The notes below the pieces were generated by a model. That model did no database searches, was not told where the DNA came from, and worked only from the letters and a program-made list of their open reading frames with translations. Positions 39,128 through 57,361 of a stretch of DNA of 64,000 nucleotides are shown here, in pieces (positions within the stretch are counted from its first letter, which is position 1; every line of letters starts with the position of its first letter). A program made the translations under genes and the position numbers. The DNA is from Candidatus Planktophila lacus (GTDB lineage: Bacteria > Actinomycetota > Actinomycetes > Nanopelagicales > Nanopelagicaceae): NCBI RefSeq assembly GCF_002287925.1, contig NZ_CP016769.1:434001-498000 (forward strand), given 5' to 3'.

Positions 39128-40771
39128 TTACTTCTTTTTATATCCCGCCGGGCACTTAGGACTAACTGCCGTTACCTTCTTAGTGGTCTTTCCCTTTACG
39201 CAAGAGATTGTGATCTTCTTAGAGGCGACCGGCGCCACAACCTTCTCCTGAGAAAGCTTTACGTTGATAGTTGGCGCAGAGAATGTAAATCCCTTAGCAG
39301 AGAGATAGAGCCATCCGTTCTTCTCGTTAACGATAGTGGTGGCAACTTTCTTCTCACCTTCATCGGAGGTAATTGAAATCTCTGCCTTGATCGGAGCGCT
39401 TGAGAAACCATAGAGACAACGCGCAATATCGCTACGCATCGACAAGTCGTAACTTCCGGAGGCGAGAGAGCCATTTGCTTCATAATGCGGTGAAGCAACT
39501 TTATAGGTGAGCGATTGCGATTCTTTATCAAATGTCGGAGGACCAGGTAGATAAGTAAGGGCATTGGTTGTTACAAGACCTGCAACGTTTCCTGTGTTAT
39601 CTGAACATTTCTGAACATCACTGGAATTCTGGCCGTAATTCATTGCTTTAAAGGCCCAAGTTGTGTTTGTCGATGTTGCCTTATCTTTATATGCGGGGGC
39701 AAAGGCCGCAGCTAAATCAACCATTACAGCTGAAGAGGAACCGTCGTTGATGCGTGCTTCTCTTATTCCATCCCCGCTCTTTCCGAAGTATCTATCAGTA
39801 AAAACAATGTCTCGAACTTTCTGTGGAATCTCTGCATTAGGAACAGAGAAGTTCAACGTTGGAACACGTACTGGTTCGGCTTCGACTGAAATTTCCTGTC
39901 CAGTTTTCCAATTCTTAATCGTTACATCAGGCAGTGCCAAACGTCCGTGGTACCAACCAGATAACTTTGTTCCCATGCGCAGCGAAACACCAAAGCGATA
40001 GCCCGCTGGAAATTCACGAACGGCTTCACAGACATTTACATCAGTTCCGACACAACGCGAACCGTCTGGCAAATACCAATTTCCAGTATCGCCCCAGTTA
40101 ACCCAAGAAGCACGAGCGGTGCCGTTATCACGCGGCTGAATCAATCTATATTGCCCAGGAATTTCTTCGACAGGCGATATTCCAGTCTTTAGCTCGCTAA
40201 GGAAAATCTTTCGTGCACTAATTGGCTCACCAACTTTCTTCTCTGGTTGAGCAAGCATAAATTGAGATGATACAAAGTATGTATCTTTACCTGCGCTATT
40301 GATGACGCCAGGTATTTGCCACAGCGCACCTTGCCCTGTTCCATCCGGCAAATTGATCGCAACATTTTCTTTAAATGTAAATTTCCCGTAATCCAGTGGA
40401 ACAGATTTAACTAATTTTCCAGGAATCTTTTTTCCGGCCGAGTCAACCGCCCAAACATCAGCGATACATGCAACGCTTGATGCATCGGTACAAACAGTGA
40501 GATTTACATATCCGATAATTCCAGCCGCATCAGTGCAAATCTTGTCCTCGAGATCATCGCAACGAAGCCAAGTTTCCTGCGAATCCAAGTTGCCTTTACC
40601 GAAGACAACATTTGGTGAGCGACCAAACTCCAACCCATCTTCGATTAGCAGTCCGAGTAGAGGAATATCTGGAGCGAACTTCATTCCGGCGTTAGCCGTA
40701 TTGGCCTGAACCAACGAACCCAACAAAAGCGCAGCAACTAGAGCTGCTCCATATTTACGGACTGACTTCAC
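39128..40771 (-). CDS. large secreted protein with C-terminal CVKGK module
   Basis: About 547 aa with a signal peptide (VKSVRKYGAALVAALLLGSLVQANTANA). I chose the GTG at 40771, which has GGGG 6 nt upstream; ATG 40783 and TTG 40789 are alternatives. The mature protein is rich in beta-strand-like segments with paired cysteines, and the last part (ISCVKGKTTKKVTAVSPKCP) is a lysine-rich two-cysteine tail shared with two other proteins in this window. It is a full-length paralogue of the broken gene at 49819-52456, sharing GSYDLSMRSDIARCLYGFSSAP-like and YLSAKGFTFSAPTINVKL-like segments. No enzyme motif recognised; surface or extracellular structural role is inferred. Confidence 0.75.
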   Translation of the reverse strand: MKSVRKYGAALVAALLLGSLVQANTANAGMKFAPDIPLLGLLIEDGLEFGRSPNVVFGKGNLDSQETWLRCDDLEDKICTDAAGIIGYVNLTVCTDASSVACIADVWAVDSAGKKIPGKLVKSVPLDYGKFTFKENVAINLPDGTGQGALWQIPGVINSAGKDTYFVSSQFMLAQPEKKVGEPISARKIFLSELKTGISPVEEIPGQYRLIQPRDNGTARASWVNWGDTGNWYLPDGSRCVGTDVNVCEAVREFPAGYRFGVSLRMGTKLSGWYHGRLALPDVTIKNWKTGQEISVEAEPVRVPTLNFSVPNAEIPQKVRDIVFTDRYFGKSGDGIREARINDGSSSAVMVDLAAAFAPAYKDKATSTNTTWAFKAMNYGQNSSDVQKCSDNTGNVAGLVTTNALTYLPGPPTFDKESQSLTYKVASPHYEANGSLASGSYDLSMRSDIARCLYGFSSAPIKAEISITSDEGEKKVATTIVNEKNGWLYLSAKGFTFSAPTINVKLSQEKVVAPVASKKITISCVKGKTTKKVTAVSPKCPAGYKKK

Positions 40772-40854
40772 GTAAAACCCCATTCGCAACTGACCGATAC
40801 AGCCTAGTTAGGCCTATATATCTGCCGTCAATTACCCCCGCGATTTATGCAGGG

Positions 40855-42669: not shown

Positions 42670-43692
42670 ATGAAACTTCGCGCAGTAGCCGTGGCCTTAG
42701 CCCTCTGCGCATCTACCTTTACTCAACCTGCCAACGCTGGATTAAACGCAGAAATTGATCTCTCCAATCCGCGAATTGTTCCGATCTATGGCTCTGATTC
42801 GCCGACACCTCCCAATATTGGTGATCAGGCTTCTTACTCGGGCTTTCTTTATTCATCACGAATAGTTTTCTCGGCCGCTCATTCTGAATATCAATTCGAT
42901 CAGCAAGGAAACAAGATCCTATTCGGTTCCAAGTATTTATTTGTTGGTCTGCCTAATTCGACAGCAGGAGACTATAAGGGTGCTGTAAAAGTAGAATTGA
43001 GATTAGTCGCAAAAAACTACAGATCTAAAAATGGCAATCTCGATGATTTTGCGATCTATGTTCTCGAGAAAGATTTAATTCCAGCGGATCCAGTCAGGCT
43101 GTTAACCCTAGAGCTTGAAGCTGAAATTCGTGAATCCAAGACGCCAATAAAGATGCATGGTTATGGAGAATATATAGATCGCTGCGATGTCAACGAAAAA
43201 CTGCCGTGTACATCTAAGTACCAAAAAACCTTTCAGCCCAGATCTTTAACTACCATTTTGCGAACTCTTAAAGAGGCCGAAGCGATTGTTGGTTATGAGC
43301 GCCAACAATTACAAAATCATCTAGTAATGAACAATGGAAAAGCAGGATTCGGGTGCAGTGGTGATTCAGGAGGCTCCATCACATCAACTTACAAAAATGA
43401 GTTGATTTACATGGCTACAACGCCAAACGGCATGAATGCCTATTCATGCGGAGCGGCCGGAGATCACGACGGCAAAGGGGGAATCAACTACGCATCTCCT
43501 GTTTACAAGCACCTTGATATTTTGAAGGAAGCCGAAGATTACGTCGCTGCAGCGCTAGCCAAAGAGGCGGAAGCAAAAGCCGCACTCGTTAAAAAGAAAT
43601 CAACGATCACCTGCGTTAAAGGCAAGACTTCAAAGAAGGTAACTGCCGTTTCACCCAAGTGCCCAACTGGCTTTAAATTAAAGAGGTTATAA
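42670..43692 (+). CDS. secreted trypsin-like serine protease with C-terminal CVKGK module
   Basis: About 340 aa with a signal peptide ending near QPANA. The chymotrypsin-fold triad can be read: His in VFSAAHSEY, Asp in NLDDFAIYVLEK and Ser in GCSGDSGGSI. Cysteines pair likely around the active site. A helical alanine-rich linker (AAALAKEAEAKAAL) leads to the C-terminal module TITCVKGKTSKKVTAVSPKC, the same as in two other secreted proteins here. Substrate unknown; it probably acts outside or at the cell surface. The ATG at 42670 is chosen over a TTG at 42664. Confidence 0.82.
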   Translation: MKLRAVAVALALCASTFTQPANAGLNAEIDLSNPRIVPIYGSDSPTPPNIGDQASYSGFLYSSRIVFSAAHSEYQFDQQGNKILFGSKYLFVGLPNSTAGDYKGAVKVELRLVAKNYRSKNGNLDDFAIYVLEKDLIPADPVRLLTLELEAEIRESKTPIKMHGYGEYIDRCDVNEKLPCTSKYQKTFQPRSLTTILRTLKEAEAIVGYERQQLQNHLVMNNGKAGFGCSGDSGGSITSTYKNELIYMATTPNGMNAYSCGAAGDHDGKGGINYASPVYKHLDILKEAEDYVAAALAKEAEAKAALVKKKSTITCVKGKTSKKVTAVSPKCPTGFKLKRL

Positions 43693-48783: not shown

Positions 48784-49814
48784 ACGCTATTTACTTCACC
48801 CAATTCAAGGGACCACTTGAAATCAAAGATATCTCGGTCCCAACTGCAACAAACGATGGCGTCGTTATAAAAGTTGAAGCAACTGGTTTATGTCGTAGCG
48901 ATTGGCACGCTTGGATGGGCCACGACTCTGACATCGTCTTGCCACATGTCCCGGGCCACGAACTCGCGGGTGTTATCTCCGAAACCGGCAGCGCAGTTAC
49001 CAAATTTAGAGTCGGCGATCGCGTAACCGTTCCCTTTGTCTGCGGCTGCGGCAAATGCCAATACTGCACACGCGGTGATGCCCAAGTCTGTCCCACCCAA
49101 ACTCAACCCGGCTTTACCGGTTTCGGATCATTTGCCGAATATGTCGCGATCAATAACGCCGACTTCAACTTAGTAACCATTCCCGAGAACGTTTCCTTCG
49201 CAACTGCCGCAGCGCTGGGTTGTCGCTTTGCAACTTCTTACCGCGGCCTCATAAAACGCGCGCACGTCAAAGCAAATGAGAAAGTTGTTATCTACGGATG
49301 CGGCGGCGTTGGCCTAAGCGCAATCATGATCGCCAAAGCCCAAGGCGCAAACGTTTACGCCGTCGACATCAACGATGCCGCTCTTGCAATCGCACAATCA
49401 CTCGGCGCCGAAACAATTAACTCCAGCAAAGTCGATCCCGTTGCCTTTATGCAAAACCTCGGGGGAGCAGATGTTGCAGTTGATGCACTCGGCAGCCAAC
49501 AAACCGCTAGCGCATCCGTACTTTCACTTGCTCGTTGCGGCCGCCATTTACAACTCGGCCTATTACTTACAGCAAACGGTTTAACCGATATCCCAATGGC
49601 CCGCGTAATCGCTTGGGAGTTAGACCTACTCGGTTCTCACGGAATGGCCGCAAAGGATTACCCAGAAATGTTGGCACTCGTTGCCAGTGGCAAACTAAAT
49701 CCAGCATCACTGATCACGCGCGAAGTTGGCCTAACTGAAGGCGCTAAAGCACTCGCCGAATTGAATAGCCAGCCATTCGGTGGCATCACCGTCATCAAGC
49801 CCAGCGAGAAATAA
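48780..49814 (+). CDS. zinc-dependent alcohol dehydrogenase
   Basis: A 344-aa medium-chain dehydrogenase: catalytic zinc Cys in TGLCRSDWHAW, GHELAGVI, a structural zinc site CGCGKCQYCTRGDAQVC and a Rossmann motif VIYGCGGVGLSAIMIA (about 170). It oxidises an alcohol with NAD(P). Substrate not determinable. Overlaps the preceding gene as ATGA, which places it in the same operon as the secreted proteins although it is cytoplasmic. Confidence 0.88.
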   Translation: MNAIYFTQFKGPLEIKDISVPTATNDGVVIKVEATGLCRSDWHAWMGHDSDIVLPHVPGHELAGVISETGSAVTKFRVGDRVTVPFVCGCGKCQYCTRGDAQVCPTQTQPGFTGFGSFAEYVAINNADFNLVTIPENVSFATAAALGCRFATSYRGLIKRAHVKANEKVVIYGCGGVGLSAIMIAKAQGANVYAVDINDAALAIAQSLGAETINSSKVDPVAFMQNLGGADVAVDALGSQQTASASVLSLARCGRHLQLGLLLTANGLTDIPMARVIAWELDLLGSHGMAAKDYPEMLALVASGKLNPASLITREVGLTEGAKALAELNSQPFGGITVIKPSEK

Positions 49815-49818
49815 CCAG

Positions 49819-51156
49819 TTACTTCTTCTTATAACCCGTAGGACACTTAGGCGATACGGCAGTCACTTTCTTAACCAGCTTGCCCTTCACGCAAGTTATC
49901 GACTTGGTCGCAGCCTTTTTAACTGGCGCCGGCGCAACTACCGCTTGCTTTTCCTGCGTTAACTTAACGCGGATTGTGGGCGTAGAAAAGGTAAAGTTCT
50001 TAGCCGACAAAAATAACCATTCTCGTTTAGCATCTTCGCGCACCGTTTCGGTACCGATTATCTGCTCACTTCCGTCTGCGTTAATAACTGAAACCGATGC
50101 CTGAAATGGCGCACTTGTGAATCCATAAACACAGCGCGCAACCGATGATCTAATCGCCAAGTCGTAACTTCCCCGCGTTAGCGTCTTGCCATCTTCCATA
50201 AAGTGCAAGCCCGCAACCTTGTAACTTAGCGCGCCATCTTTAAACTCTGGCGCAGAAGGGGAGTAAACCATCGCATTAGTTGTCACGATTCCAAGCAACT
50301 GTGTTTTGTCATCAAAACAAGCATTACCGCTGGTTGCCTGATAACCGTTGGCACTTGCACCGGAAGAGACAATCCACTGCGCGCGATAACCCGCCTTGGT
50401 CTTCAAAATCGGCTCAAACGCAGCGAAATCTTCGAAGTTTCCAACTGGGTCATACCCATCAACGATCGAACCTTCACTTTGCAGCATCATGTTGTACCCA
50501 AAGACCCCAGAACTTAAACGCACTCGGGCATCAATCTTCGGGTTACTGGCTAACTCACTCTTCTTTATATAACCAAATGCACCCGGAGCGTTTACAGGAA
50601 GAGCTTCAATCTTGATTCGATTATTCTTCGCATCAATCGGATCGACTTTAACGTCGACATCCTTCATGCGGCCATAAAGCCAACCAGTCATTTCAGCGCC
50701 CATACGCATCGTCAAAGCAACGCGCGTGTTATCGGCAAAATCTTCATACTTTGCGCAGAAACCTAATTCTGTCCAAGCGCAATCTGCCAAATTGTCGTAA
50801 TCGTTTCCAGTTTGCCGCACGCCAAAAGTAGCGCCACCATCGGGATTAACCGATGTGTAACTTTCAAGCGGGTAATACTTCCCAGCCTTTTGAGTAACTG
50901 GAATAACGCTTAAGTTCATTGAGGTCAAAGTTATCGGTGCATTAGCTTTTCCTGCCGCACCAACAGCTTCACGATTCTGTCCATACACAACCCGCGCAAT
51001 TACGCCGTAAGTAAAGTTGCCAGATTTGTTGGCAAACTTTGCCGACTTCCACAAACTCGGACCGCCACCACGCGGTAAACCAAGCGCCACATCTGCCGGA
51101 GTCGTAAGCGATCTAACTTCGTGATCCAAAACCGCAAATAAAGTGCAAGCCCGCAA
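49819..51156 (-). pseudogene. C-terminal fragment of a secreted protein split by a 940-bp duplication
   Basis: 445 codons open from a TTG at 51156. It has no signal peptide or good start. Residues from LDHEVRSLTTPADVALG onward repeat what is already encoded in the upstream fragment, then continue into the true C-terminus with FLSAKNFTFSTPTIRVKLTQEK and the SITCVKGKLVKKVTAVSPKC tail. Removing one 940-bp copy would join it in frame with 51113-52456 to give about 565 aa, close to the 547-aa paralogue at 39128-40771. As it stands the C-terminal half is out of frame and probably not made. Confidence 0.75.
50198..51137. repeat. 940-bp tandem direct repeat, copy 1
   Basis: Identical by eye to 51138-52077 at an offset of 940, including identical translations in several frames. 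The copies abut exactly at 51137/51138. 940 is not a multiple of 3, so the duplication shifts the reading frame. Confidence 0.93.
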
Positions 51157-52456
51157 CCTTGTAACTTAGCGCGCCATCTTTAAACTCTGGCGCAGAAGGG
51201 GAGTAAACCATCGCATTAGTTGTCACGATTCCAAGCAACTGTGTTTTGTCATCAAAACAAGCATTACCGCTGGTTGCCTGATAACCGTTGGCACTTGCAC
51301 CGGAAGAGACAATCCACTGCGCGCGATAACCCGCCTTGGTCTTCAAAATCGGCTCAAACGCAGCGAAATCTTCGAAGTTTCCAACTGGGTCATACCCATC
51401 AACGATCGAACCTTCACTTTGCAGCATCATGTTGTACCCAAAGACCCCAGAACTTAAACGCACTCGGGCATCAATCTTCGGGTTACTGGCTAACTCACTC
51501 TTCTTTATATAACCAAATGCACCCGGAGCGTTTACAGGAAGAGCTTCAATCTTGATTCGATTATTCTTCGCATCAATCGGATCGACTTTAACGTCGACAT
51601 CCTTCATGCGGCCATAAAGCCAACCAGTCATTTCAGCGCCCATACGCATCGTCAAAGCAACGCGCGTGTTATCGGCAAAATCTTCATACTTTGCGCAGAA
51701 ACCTAATTCTGTCCAAGCGCAATCTGCCAAATTGTCGTAATCGTTTCCAGTTTGCCGCACGCCAAAAGTAGCGCCACCATCGGGATTAACCGATGTGTAA
51801 CTTTCAAGCGGGTAATACTTCCCAGCCTTTTGAGTAACTGGAATAACGCTTAAGTTCATTGAGGTCAAAGTTATCGGTGCATTAGCTTTTCCTGCCGCAC
51901 CAACAGCTTCACGATTCTGTCCATACACAACCCGCGCAATTACGCCGTAAGTAAAGTTGCCAGATTTGTTGGCAAACTTTGCCGACTTCCACAAACTCGG
52001 ACCGCCACCACGCGGTAAACCAAGCGCCACATCTGCCGGAGTCGTAAGCGATCTAACTTCGTGATCCAAAACCGCAAGCTCCATATCAGAAGCAGAAGTT
52101 CCAATACTTAATCCTTCGACGCACATCAATTGATTTGCCGTTTCACATGGCGGCAAGATTAATTGCGCTCTAACGAATGAACCTTTCGCACAGTTTGCAT
52201 CACTTAATGACGAGCAAAGAAATGTGTTAGGCGGAGTACCAGGCTGGGCAGAAAGGTTTGAAGTAATGATCGAAACATTCTCACCAGAAGTAGGTTGGCG
52301 CTCTGAAAAATCAACGCCTAAATAACCTTTACTCGTTGCACCACCCGGCAGCAGATCCAACAAACTCGCACCTTGAGTCGGTGCCAGTGTTGTAAATGCG
52401 AGAGAAATGACGGAAAAAGCGATCACAAAAAACCTGGCGGCAAATTTCTTCGGCAT
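51113..52456 (-). CDS. secreted protein, N-terminal fragment truncated by duplication frameshift
   Basis: About 447 aa from an ATG at 52456 with GAAAGG upstream. A TTG at 52552 is possible but would overlap the DUF2256 gene and precede the signal peptide. The signal peptide MPKKFAARFFVIAFSVISLAF is followed by beta-rich sequence with several cysteines, a paralogue of the protein at 39128-40771. The frame runs through repeat copy 2 and breaks at the junction, ending in a foreign tail (ICGFGSRS). The product therefore lacks the C-terminal CVKGK module. Function unknown. Confidence 0.7.
   Translation of the reverse strand: MPKKFAARFFVIAFSVISLAFTTLAPTQGASLLDLLPGGATSKGYLGVDFSERQPTSGENVSIITSNLSAQPGTPPNTFLCSSLSDANCAKGSFVRAQLILPPCETANQLMCVEGLSIGTSASDMELAVLDHEVRSLTTPADVALGLPRGGGPSLWKSAKFANKSGNFTYGVIARVVYGQNREAVGAAGKANAPITLTSMNLSVIPVTQKAGKYYPLESYTSVNPDGGATFGVRQTGNDYDNLADCAWTELGFCAKYEDFADNTRVALTMRMGAEMTGWLYGRMKDVDVKVDPIDAKNNRIKIEALPVNAPGAFGYIKKSELASNPKIDARVRLSSGVFGYNMMLQSEGSIVDGYDPVGNFEDFAAFEPILKTKAGYRAQWIVSSGASANGYQATSGNACFDDKTQLLGIVTTNAMVYSPSAPEFKDGALSYKVAGLHFICGFGSRS
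51138..52077. repeat. 940-bp tandem direct repeat, copy 2
   Basis: Second copy, directly adjoining copy 1. The left boundary follows ACCGCAA at 51131-51137 and the right boundary is at 52077, after which the sequence becomes unique (GCTCCATATC). Confidence 0.93.
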
Positions 52457-52518
52457 CTGATACAAACCTTTCAAAGTGTTAACTAAGGGTACTCCGCACC
52501 CGGCGCTAACCTTCTCCA

Positions 52519-52656
52519 GTGATCGCAAAGACCAAGAACGGCTTCCCGCCAAAGATCTGCGCGCGATGTGGCCTACCCTTTGAATGGCGTAAGAAATGGG
52601 CGCGCGATTGGGAGAACGTTAAGTATTGTTCTGAAAAATGTAAGACCGGAAAGTAA
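52519..52656 (+). CDS. DUF2256-type small zinc-ribbon protein, 45 aa
   Basis: A 45-codon frame encoding [22 protein letters not shown] and ending [11 protein letters not shown]. The CxxC...CxxxC pattern with FxWRKKW is that of DUF2256, small proteins probably binding one zinc. The start is a GTG with TAACCT at 52507-52512, exactly 6 nt upstream, so a leaderless start is likely. The next stop codon on the other strand (OYE gene) is adjacent. Confidence 0.82.
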
Positions 52657-53988: not shown

Positions 53989-55116
53989 CTAGCTATTTTT
54001 CATTACCTTGTAGTCATATCCAAGGGCATCTAAGTCTGAATCTTCAATCTTCCAAGGTGAGATGAAAATAACCTTTCCACCTTTTGCCGATGGTGGCTCG
54101 CTTCGATCTAGATCTATTTGGCTCACGACGATAAGCGCATTATTTGGATGCTCTTGGCGGTGAAGAAGAACTTCATTTCGGGTGAGTACAACTTTCTCAC
54201 CTAACGACATCGTTCCCTTAACCTCGATGTAAAAATCGATGTCATTCAACTTTGCGGCGATGTCATAGGAACGATTTTTTCCGACATCTTTAATGTCCGT
54301 GAAACCCTTCTTTCCCAAATGCTTCATGGCTACTTCAACTGCGTGCTCTTCAATGACTTTCTTATGCGCTTGCGGTAAACGCGAGCGCCCTTGGCGTCGA
54401 GGTCCGGTTAGATCTCTTCCAGCGGCTTGTGCGATTGCTGCGACAGCTTCTTTATGCTCAGGACTTTCGGATCCGGGGATCGTGGCATCCGTTTCCTGCA
54501 AAAAATAAATCTTAGATAGCATCTCCAACAAGAACTCGATATCCGTGAAAATCTGTTCGTCAGAGGGAACGCTTTCTTTGCGATATTCAAATCCACATAA
54601 ACTGGTCCGATCATAAGCTTCAGCAAGATTTCCTTTTGCCTCTAGATTTCGTGAGAACTTAAGTCTCGGATTCTTAACCTGATCAAGATTTAACTTTTCG
54701 CGGCCCCACGTCATTAGCGCGGCAGCAACCTCAGGTGCGAGAGCTTTTTGATATCTCCGCTCCATGGAATCACCATCGTAAGTCGTGCTGGCATGCCCAA
54801 GACTTAGGTAACAGTTAGATCCGGTGGCTGAGAACAAGAAAACGACGTACCAGCCTTTTGTGGCACTTGGACTGAGTTCTTTAGATGCTAGACGCACCCA
54901 AGGAATCTCTGCTTTATTTCCGTCGCCATCTTTACCTTGCACCCAGAGATCTTCGATAGCTATTTCGTACTTGGATTTGAAGCGATCTAAGTTTTCGCTC
55001 AGCGAAGAGGCAATCTCTTTGCGGATCAGGATTCCACGTCTTTGCATAGCCGGAGTGTTCTTTGAGGTGTATTGCCTTTGAAGCTCAAGAACTTCTCGAA
55101 TCTGGGAACTGATCAT
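53989..55116 (-). CDS. MrcB-N/DUF3883 restriction-like protein
   Basis: A 375-aa protein with two domains. The N-terminal 170 residues (GKDGDGNKAEIPWVRLASKELSPSATKGWYVVFLFSA) resemble the MrcB N-terminal (DUF3578) module that reads modified DNA in McrBC-type systems. The C-terminal part (HAVEVAMKHLGKKGF, then YDIAAKLNDIDFYIEVKGTMS) is a DUF3883 domain with a PD-(D/E)xK nuclease core (D, then ExK in EVKGT). This is a plausible type IV restriction enzyme acting alone. TAACCT at 55123-55128, 6 nt before the ATG, gives a leaderless start. It diverges from the nuclease-helicase operon across 75 nt. Confidence 0.82.
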   Translation of the reverse strand: MISSQIREVLELQRQYTSKNTPAMQRRGILIRKEIASSLSENLDRFKSKYEIAIEDLWVQGKDGDGNKAEIPWVRLASKELSPSATKGWYVVFLFSATGSNCYLSLGHASTTYDGDSMERRYQKALAPEVAAALMTWGREKLNLDQVKNPRLKFSRNLEAKGNLAEAYDRTSLCGFEYRKESVPSDEQIFTDIEFLLEMLSKIYFLQETDATIPGSESPEHKEAVAAIAQAAGRDLTGPRRQGRSRLPQAHKKVIEEHAVEVAMKHLGKKGFTDIKDVGKNRSYDIAAKLNDIDFYIEVKGTMSLGEKVVLTRNEVLLHRQEHPNNALIVVSQIDLDRSEPPSAKGGKVIFISPWKIEDSDLDALGYDYKVMKNS

Positions 55117-55191
55117 GCTGGAAGGTTACTCAGGGTAACCGACATCTGCCAGATGCTTACGGAGAGTAGTTTTCGGCTATAGCCTTAACTC

Positions 55192-57045
55192 GTGCTGGCA
55201 TATCTCGCTACGAAGAAGAAATTTCTGGAGGACGCCCACATCATTGAAGACCTTGTCAGGGATGCCGTAAAGCAGAATTTGGGCCTAGGTGTCGGGCAAA
55301 ATGAATATTCATCCTGGCGAAACTCACTCGGTAACGGAATGTCTCACATTATTGCGAGTCCAGATATACCGGATGATGCAGGAATTGCTATTGAGTATCA
55401 AATAAATAAACTCAAAAACCGAATCGATTTCATAGTTTCTGGAAGGCAAGCGGACGGGTCCGAATCAATTGTAATAATTGAACTTAAGCAGTGGACAAGT
55501 ATTGATTATTCCGAGCTGCCGGAACATGTAAACACCTTCGTAGGCCAGAAGAATCGAGATGTCGTTCATCCTTCTTATCAGGCACGAAGTTACGCAAGCT
55601 TGTTAGAAATGTACAACGAATATGTCTACGAGACGCCCGTTAGAATTACTTCGTGCGCATATTTACATAATTGTCCTGAGTTAGATGTTGTCAATGATTC
55701 TCGTTACGAAGAAGCGCTTCGAAATACCCCTGTTTTTATTAAAGGACAAAAGAAAGAAATAGTCGCACTAATTTCTGATCGAATTAAGAGTGGTGATGGA
55801 GTAGAACTACTTAAGAGAGTCGATGCCTCACCAACAAAACCTTCACTTCAGCTAGCTGATGCAGTAACAAATATGCTTCAAGGCAAAGAAGCATTCGTTC
55901 TCATTGATGAGCAAAAAACGGTCTTGGAAACGATTGTCAAGACTTCACTCCAGGGCTTGAAGGGGCCAAAGCAAGTCGTGATAGTTAAAGGTGGACCAGG
56001 GACAGGTAAGTCAGTTATTGCGATAAATTCACTTTCGAGACTTATGGGTCAGCGATTGATTGCTCGCTATGTAACGCCGAATGCCGCACCTAGAGCAGTT
56101 TTTGAAGTGAAGCTTAAGTCGGCTTTCAAAGGTGGAGAGATTAAAGAGCTTTTTAGCGGATCTGGAAATTTTACGGGAATAGAAGCAAATGACTTCGATG
56201 TACTGATTGTCGATGAAGCGCATCGACTAAAACTAAGAACCCAATATTCGAAGGGAGGCGATAATCAGATTCGCGAGGTTATTCAGGCCGCGAAAACTTC
56301 TGTTTTCTTCCTGGATGAAGCGCAGAAAGTAACCTGGAAGGACATAGGGGAGTCATTCGAGATCGAAAAATTCGCCAGGGCCATGGGGGCCGAGATTCAT
56401 CATCTTGAGTTAAAGTCTCAGTTTCGATGTAACGGTTCCGATGGGTATTTAACCTGGCTTGATGAAAGCTTAGGGATTGCGGAGGACTCAGGTAACTCCT
56501 TCAACGATGCCAATTATGATTTTCAGGTTTTTGACGATCCATCGAAACTGTACGCTGAAATTCGAAAGCGAAATAAACTGAACAACAAATCGAGAATGTT
56601 GGCGGGTTACTGCTGGGACTGGATAAGTAAAAAAGATAAATTGAAATTTGATATTGAATTTCCCAAGTTTAATTTTCGAGCGAAGTGGAACTTGGAGTCT
56701 CGTGGAAGTGCGTGGATAATCGACCCCAATTCTATTGACGATATTGGCTGCATTCACACATCACAAGGTTTAGAACTTGAATATGTAGGTGTAATCATCG
56801 GCCCAGACTTTAAATTAATAGATGGTTGCTTAGCGACAGAACCCTCAGGTCGGGCAAGCACCGATGTTTCACTGCATGGATATAAAAAAGAGTTCAAGGA
56901 GAATCCCGAATTAGCCACCATCAAGGCAGACCAGATAATCCGAAATACATACAGAACTCTCATGACGCGAGGTATGAAGGGTTGCTATATTTACTGTACT
57001 GACGAGCAAGTAGCTAGTTATTTCCGAGATCGACTAGCAAGATAG
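55192..57045 (+). CDS. nuclease-helicase with DUF2075 domain
   Basis: A 617-aa protein. The first 150 residues form a PD-(D/E)xK-like nuclease (RIDFIVSG, then ESIVIIELKQW). A superfamily-1-like ATPase follows with Walker A KGGPGTGKSV near 262, Walker B VLIVDEAHRL near 340, and later motifs (DEAQKVTW, GCIHTSQGLELEYVGVIIGPDF, RTLMTRGMKGCYIYC) typical of DUF2075. Such proteins occur in phage-defence loci. GTG start with TATAGC 8 nt upstream. AGA arginine codons are more common than in the housekeeping genes, suggesting transfer. Followed 7 nt later by a MazG-like gene. Confidence 0.85.
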   Translation: MLAYLATKKKFLEDAHIIEDLVRDAVKQNLGLGVGQNEYSSWRNSLGNGMSHIIASPDIPDDAGIAIEYQINKLKNRIDFIVSGRQADGSESIVIIELKQWTSIDYSELPEHVNTFVGQKNRDVVHPSYQARSYASLLEMYNEYVYETPVRITSCAYLHNCPELDVVNDSRYEEALRNTPVFIKGQKKEIVALISDRIKSGDGVELLKRVDASPTKPSLQLADAVTNMLQGKEAFVLIDEQKTVLETIVKTSLQGLKGPKQVVIVKGGPGTGKSVIAINSLSRLMGQRLIARYVTPNAAPRAVFEVKLKSAFKGGEIKELFSGSGNFTGIEANDFDVLIVDEAHRLKLRTQYSKGGDNQIREVIQAAKTSVFFLDEAQKVTWKDIGESFEIEKFARAMGAEIHHLELKSQFRCNGSDGYLTWLDESLGIAEDSGNSFNDANYDFQVFDDPSKLYAEIRKRNKLNNKSRMLAGYCWDWISKKDKLKFDIEFPKFNFRAKWNLESRGSAWIIDPNSIDDIGCIHTSQGLELEYVGVIIGPDFKLIDGCLATEPSGRASTDVSLHGYKKEFKENPELATIKADQIIRNTYRTLMTRGMKGCYIYCTDEQVASYFRDRLAR

Positions 57046-57052
57046 GTTAGCT

Positions 57053-57361
57053 ATGAACGAAATTAATCAACTAATGGCTGAAATTCGGGCTTTTGCTGAT
57101 GCACGAAAATGGGAGGTTTTTCATACTCCCAAAAATCTGTCTATGGCAGTAGCAGGTGAAGCGGGTGAGCTGGTCGCAGAGTTCCAGTGGCTTACCGCAA
57201 GAGAGTCGGAACGCTCAGAGTTATCTGCTGAAAAACTGATCGATATCGAAATGGAAATCGCTGATGTGGCTATGTACTTGTTAAGACTGGCAGACGTTTT
57301 AAATATAGACCTCTCAGAAGCTGTCAGAAAGAAATTGGCAATTAACGAATCCCGTTTTTAG
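57053..57361 (+). CDS. MazG-like nucleotide pyrophosphohydrolase
   Basis: A 102-aa all-helical protein with the metal-binding pattern GEAGELVAEFQWL and, 30 residues later, EMEIADVAMYLLRLAD (ExxE...ExxD). It should hydrolyse (d)NTPs or related nucleotides such as modified or alarmone nucleotides to monophosphates. Its placement in the nuclease-helicase operon suggests a role in defence, for example by depleting nucleotides. It stands 26 nt before the next gene. Confidence 0.88.
   Translation: MNEINQLMAEIRAFADARKWEVFHTPKNLSMAVAGEAGELVAEFQWLTARESERSELSAEKLIDIEMEIADVAMYLLRLADVLNIDLSEAVRKKLAINESRF

Follow-up and report, generated by a model that had tools for sequence, protein, structure and literature searches.

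Does the perfect tandem duplication that interrupts this secreted-protein gene exist in the living cell, or was it introduced when the genome was put together? In the window (the whole stretch of 64,000 nucleotides that we analysed), two 940-bp units directly adjoin one another and agree at 940/940 positions, just as the original prediction had read them, to the base. The match at period 940 holds exactly from 50198 to 51137, with 0 further matching bases past either edge, and both copies lie at 484198-486077 of the contig (G000:C1, G000 being the window's genome). An identity over 940 bases cannot be chance. The sole sequence specific to the duplicated state is the junction itself (Table 1), and this 30-mer, GATCCAAAACCGCAAATAAAGTGCAAGCCC, found no match in the viral contigs searched. 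We consider it highly probable that the duplication is false and was made in assembly, and that the real chromosome most likely carries a single copy with an intact 565-aa gene.

Table 1. Features of the locus and exact two-copy tandem duplications in the contig and in a second genome of the genus, G004. Locations are window coordinates unless marked as contig (G000:C1) or G004.
Feature	Location	Strand	Period (bp)	Junction homology (bp)	Remarks
940-bp unit, copy 1	50198..51137	no strand			940/940 identical to 51138-52077
940-bp unit, copy 2	51138..52077	no strand			940/940 identical to copy 1
Junction	51123..51152	+		0	GATCCAAAACCGCAA joined to ATAAAGTGCAAGCCC
Split gene, 5' part	51113..52456	-			ATG 52456; signal-peptide-like N-terminus MPKKFAARFFVIAFSVISLAFTTLAPTQGA; 447 codons
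Split gene, 3' part	49819..51156	-			C-terminal module SITCVKGKLVKKVTAVSPKCPTGYKKK; without a signal peptide of its own
Distant intact paralogue	39128..40789	-			553 aa from TTG, 547 aa from ATG 40771; same secreted family
Contig duplication	start 31369		1067	1	topA/galE
Contig duplication	start 147911		270	1	stretch adjoining fmdB-like gene
Contig duplication	start 286360		799	3	prmC
Contig duplication	start 413237		1253	1	LacI-type-regulator/hydrolase region
Contig duplication	start 484198		940	0	split secreted-protein gene (this locus)
Contig duplication	start 585869		1126	0	murD
Contig duplication	start 1035158		1041	2	another secreted-protein gene pair
Contig duplication	start 1251605		306	0	transport-permease pair
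Contig duplication	start 1318469		1502	4	ABC-transporter region
G004 duplication	L136:16294-18077		892	0	
G004 duplication	L137:14218-16431		1107	2	
G004 duplication	L146:644-2197		777	0	

The split gene and its single-copy form

The whole split gene lies on the minus strand and runs from an ATG at 52456 to a stop at 49819. As had been claimed, 940 is one more than a multiple of 3 and the gene is split into two frames, the break falling at 51137/51138: the 5' ORF reads through one copy, continues for ~8 out-of-frame residues past the join and stops at 51113. Removal of one copy leaves (2638-940)/3 = 565 aa plus the stop. The expectation that a single copy would be an intact gene of ~565 aa is borne out by G107, a genome of the same genus, which has an intact single-copy orthologue of 565 aa (L029:4113-5810). 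The gene agrees with this orthologue at ~80% at the DNA level (dN about 0.1, dS above 1.1), and either half can be aligned to it with no gap or stop. Join aside, the split gene shows no apparent lesion or decay. The length had originally been judged from the paralogue in the window; this paralogue is indeed intact, but at about 26% identity to the split gene (E 2.6e-27) it is weaker evidence than the G107 orthologue.

In G003, which is of the same species, the whole gene is absent (window 49795-52519), while the neighbours are conserved and both flanks are colinear. By this comparison, 49795-52519 is an apparent strain-variable insertion site. Because a genome of the same species is without it, the gene is accessory and its loss thus tolerable.

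Exact tandem duplications across the contig and in related genomes

We scanned the whole contig of 1,460,061 bases for exact two-copy tandem duplications with a period of at least 200. The first 504-kb sample already held four further exact duplications, which was unexpected, and the contig holds nine, with periods of 270-1502 and 8,304 duplicated bases showing 0 mismatches. Genes at the nine units were named by eye from their translations, and murD also through the Pfam family Mur_ligase_C. The natural birth and death of tandem copies should give copies of mixed age, yet all nine stand at zero. Ungapped diverged tandem copies at 70-99.9% identity were sought over the whole contig and, except for one short-period array, none were found, so that there is no spectrum of ages; identical copies throughout a genome with no such spectrum are a mark of false duplication. 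The array (G000:C1:368414-368700) is a genuine imperfect one with units of ~39-42 bases, and is the contig's only tandem repeat with diverged copies.

The junction homology of each duplication, taken as run length minus period, was 0-4 bp at the nine joins and summed to 12, against 6.0 expected for sequence-blind joins (P = 0.04). These are blunt or almost blunt joins, as they would be in false duplications, whose breakpoints are blind to sequence; the sum is slightly above pure chance, and this is a counterpoint to an origin in assembly. Verified spontaneous duplications in Salmonella have junction homologies of at least 11 bp, and shorter overlaps there acted like chimeric reads (PMC3411829). 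The joins reported here, with 0 bp at this locus and 0-4 bp elsewhere, do not reach the ~11 bp or more of those natural duplications. Both kinds share a direct tandem arrangement and a novel junction, but the Salmonella duplications occur in subpopulations (PMC3411829), whereas here simultaneous fixation at nine loci would be needed.

Related genomes served as controls. In G003, 7/9 loci could be traced across both edges and all of these were single copy. The 420 kb of G003 and the 400 kb of G011 that were scanned contained no such exact tandem duplication, although 820 kb should hold ~5 at the rate of G000 (P about 0.006, by our own arithmetic). A 400-kb sample of G004 contained three such duplications, at loci other than the nine of G000. 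Each of these places has just one copy in G000, and one lies inside a stretch that is 99.9% identical to G000. Since the two genomes differ in the loci concerned, the pattern belongs to particular assemblies and not to loci or species. Occurrence at several unrelated places, together with absence from well-assembled close relatives, is again what false duplication would produce. As a second counterpoint, the three G004 duplications could also come from a genus-level process.

Two of the duplications fall on murD and prmC. The former is frameshifted 10 residues before its end in G000 only, and is whole in G003 and G004; the latter is rearranged in G000. We had considered the argument that essential genes are destroyed and that the duplications must hence be false, but it loses force because the first murD ORF is complete up to its last 10 residues and little is missing from the second prmC ORF. 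Such damage would inconvenience a living cell, but it is not clearly lethal and not by itself impossible.

Origin of the duplications

The original prediction had left the choice between a recent event, perhaps phase variation, and an assembly artefact. The artefact is strongly supported by the nine exact duplications, their 0-4 bp joins and the single copies in G003, and we infer that the junction is absent from cells. The most likely route to it would be that contig ends sharing 0.27-1.5 kb were placed one after the other with the overlap kept; less likely, the assembler may have gone twice round a loop arising from chimeric reads. Rotation of the closed sequence to a start beside dnaA would then have left the seams in mid-contig. 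The first base of the contig lies ~100 bases ahead of dnaA, and the contig ends meet exactly, as they do in G003; because the ends are seamless near dnaA, the circle was closed elsewhere and then rotated. For related isolates, short-read contigs are described as having been lengthened, paired through their overlapping ends and closed manually or by PCR (PMC12381374; PMC6794327), with whole-genome amplification in some cases (PMC5301498). Two other assembly faults were rejected: a chimeric misjoin of distant sequences, since both flanks of the locus are colinear with G003, and leftover overlap at the present contig ends, since these meet exactly near the origin.

False duplications described in other assemblies (PMC9516828; assembly forensics, PMC2397507) likewise consist of identical side-by-side copies, several per assembly, which are single copy in close relatives and falsely split or duplicate genes. 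The published cases are mostly eukaryotic, arise from heterozygosity or read errors and often have a gap between the copies, whereas the organism studied here is haploid and its copies abut exactly with no gap. The decisive marks of the published cases are read depth and discordant pairs; the likeness drawn here is one of sequence.

One version of the assembly artefact would trace the joins to chimeras from whole-genome amplification, which were then traversed as small loops. Amplified DNA has been used for streamlined isolates of the lineage (PMC5301498), and chimeras made during amplification form where homology is short or lacking (PMC1855051); the small surplus of 1-4 bp at the joins would agree with this. 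However, such chimeras are mostly inverted, with only 15% direct and only 11/475 both direct and spanning less than 10 kb (PMC1855051), so that direct tandem seams should be rare and loops less likely as the main cause. We regard this version as rather unlikely, and its share is counted within our overall confidence in an artefact.

Far less probable than either assembly route is a real and very recent duplication by illegitimate (blunt, end-joining-like) recombination, which would leave the accessory gene off until one copy was lost by recombination between the two. Identical copies in an otherwise undamaged gene are what would be expected right after a real event, loss of a gene absent from G003 could be tolerated, and bacterial cultures often carry tandem duplications (PMC3411829). 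At this locus alone such an event would be plausible. However, with eight more zero-age duplications in the contig, nine simultaneous events would be needed, and nine at once and of the same age are not plausible; housekeeping genes are also struck by other units, and joins with 0-4 bp of homology are unlike those of verified natural duplications (PMC3411829). The corresponding reading for the whole chromosome is a real burst in G000 and G004, and not in G003 or G011 as sampled, of mismatch-free, near-blunt two-copy duplications of ~0.3-1.5 kb, and we give it an equally slender chance. If true, it would represent an undescribed end-joining-like duplication process in a genome-streamlined freshwater genus. 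Long tandem repeats are unstable in growing cells, which also counts against a real duplication. In E. coli, Lovett's tetA assays reportedly measure deletion between repeats with reporter genes into which an internal tandem duplication has been engineered. Those constructs resemble the present locus in that the duplicated segment is slightly shorter than 1 kb and disrupts the gene, which is restored when one copy is lost; they differ in being built and real, and they imply frequent loss of a real duplication, not the existence of one here.

Phase variation by slipped recombination, in which gain or loss of one 940-bp copy would switch a surface protein on and off, did not hold up and is extremely unlikely. 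Gain or loss of 940 bp, one more than a multiple of 3, would shift the frame, and the product is secreted and from a large strain-variable family. The proposal was nevertheless rejected on mechanism. A phase switch has repeats in both states, and no direct repeat is present at the single-copy edges, where in-register identity is 3/20 within 10 bp of the breakpoints and no 9-mer is shared within 60 bp. Without flanking repeats in the single copy, a return to the OFF state would be too rare to be useful, and the switch would work one way only. A phase-variable duplication would also recur at the same gene in relatives, and a comparison with sister genomes, as the original prediction had proposed, gave no recurrence: the gene is absent from G003 and single and intact in G107, and no such tandem duplication was found at 20 family-member loci from relatives (90 kb). 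Finally, three of the nine periods are multiples of 3, and several of the units lie outside secreted-protein genes.

An assembly artefact, our preferred reading, is mainly a warning about quality. A one-contig genome rated 99.96% complete apparently contains nine false seams (~8.3 kb), and if they are false, the true genome size would be near 1,451,757 bases. False seams split or duplicate genes, and G004, of the same genus, shows the pattern too. Any tally of pseudogenes, paralogues or surface-protein variation based on such records would be in error at these loci. In other finished genomes of bacteria, the same fault would show up in a simple search for exact tandem duplications whose junction homology is close to zero.

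The secreted-protein family and neighbouring genes

The product of the split gene is a member of a family of large secreted proteins (~520-650 aa) with many invariant cysteines in their alignment. There are about a dozen matches in the 1.46-Mb G000, and the family is present in 37/135 genomes of the genus. Pfam and NCBIfam gave no family for either gene half or for the paralogue, and a protein scan of named genomes gave no match. An AlphaFold model of the G107 orthologue (mean pLDDT 79.6, pTM 0.78) showed no convincing match to the PDB, the best having a probability of 0.35 and a TM of 0.14. The function of the protein is not needed for explaining the duplication.

The C-terminal module is ~29 residues long (ITCxKGKxxKKVTAVxPKCPxGYKKK), with two cysteines and a lysine-rich end, and is found in the window at 49819-49905, 39128-39220 and 43600-43692. 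It ends at least 19 ORFs of G000, including large secreted proteins and one trypsin-like protein. By protein search, it was present in 29/60 relatives, all in the window's own family, and in 0/23 genomes from other families of the class. The module may serve in cell-surface retention or sorting.

Near the split gene, 53989-57361 encodes a protein with MrcB_N and a NO VEIN C-terminal domain, a Schlafen group 3 helicase-domain protein and then a 102-aa protein. These genes form a possible candidate for a defence-like group.
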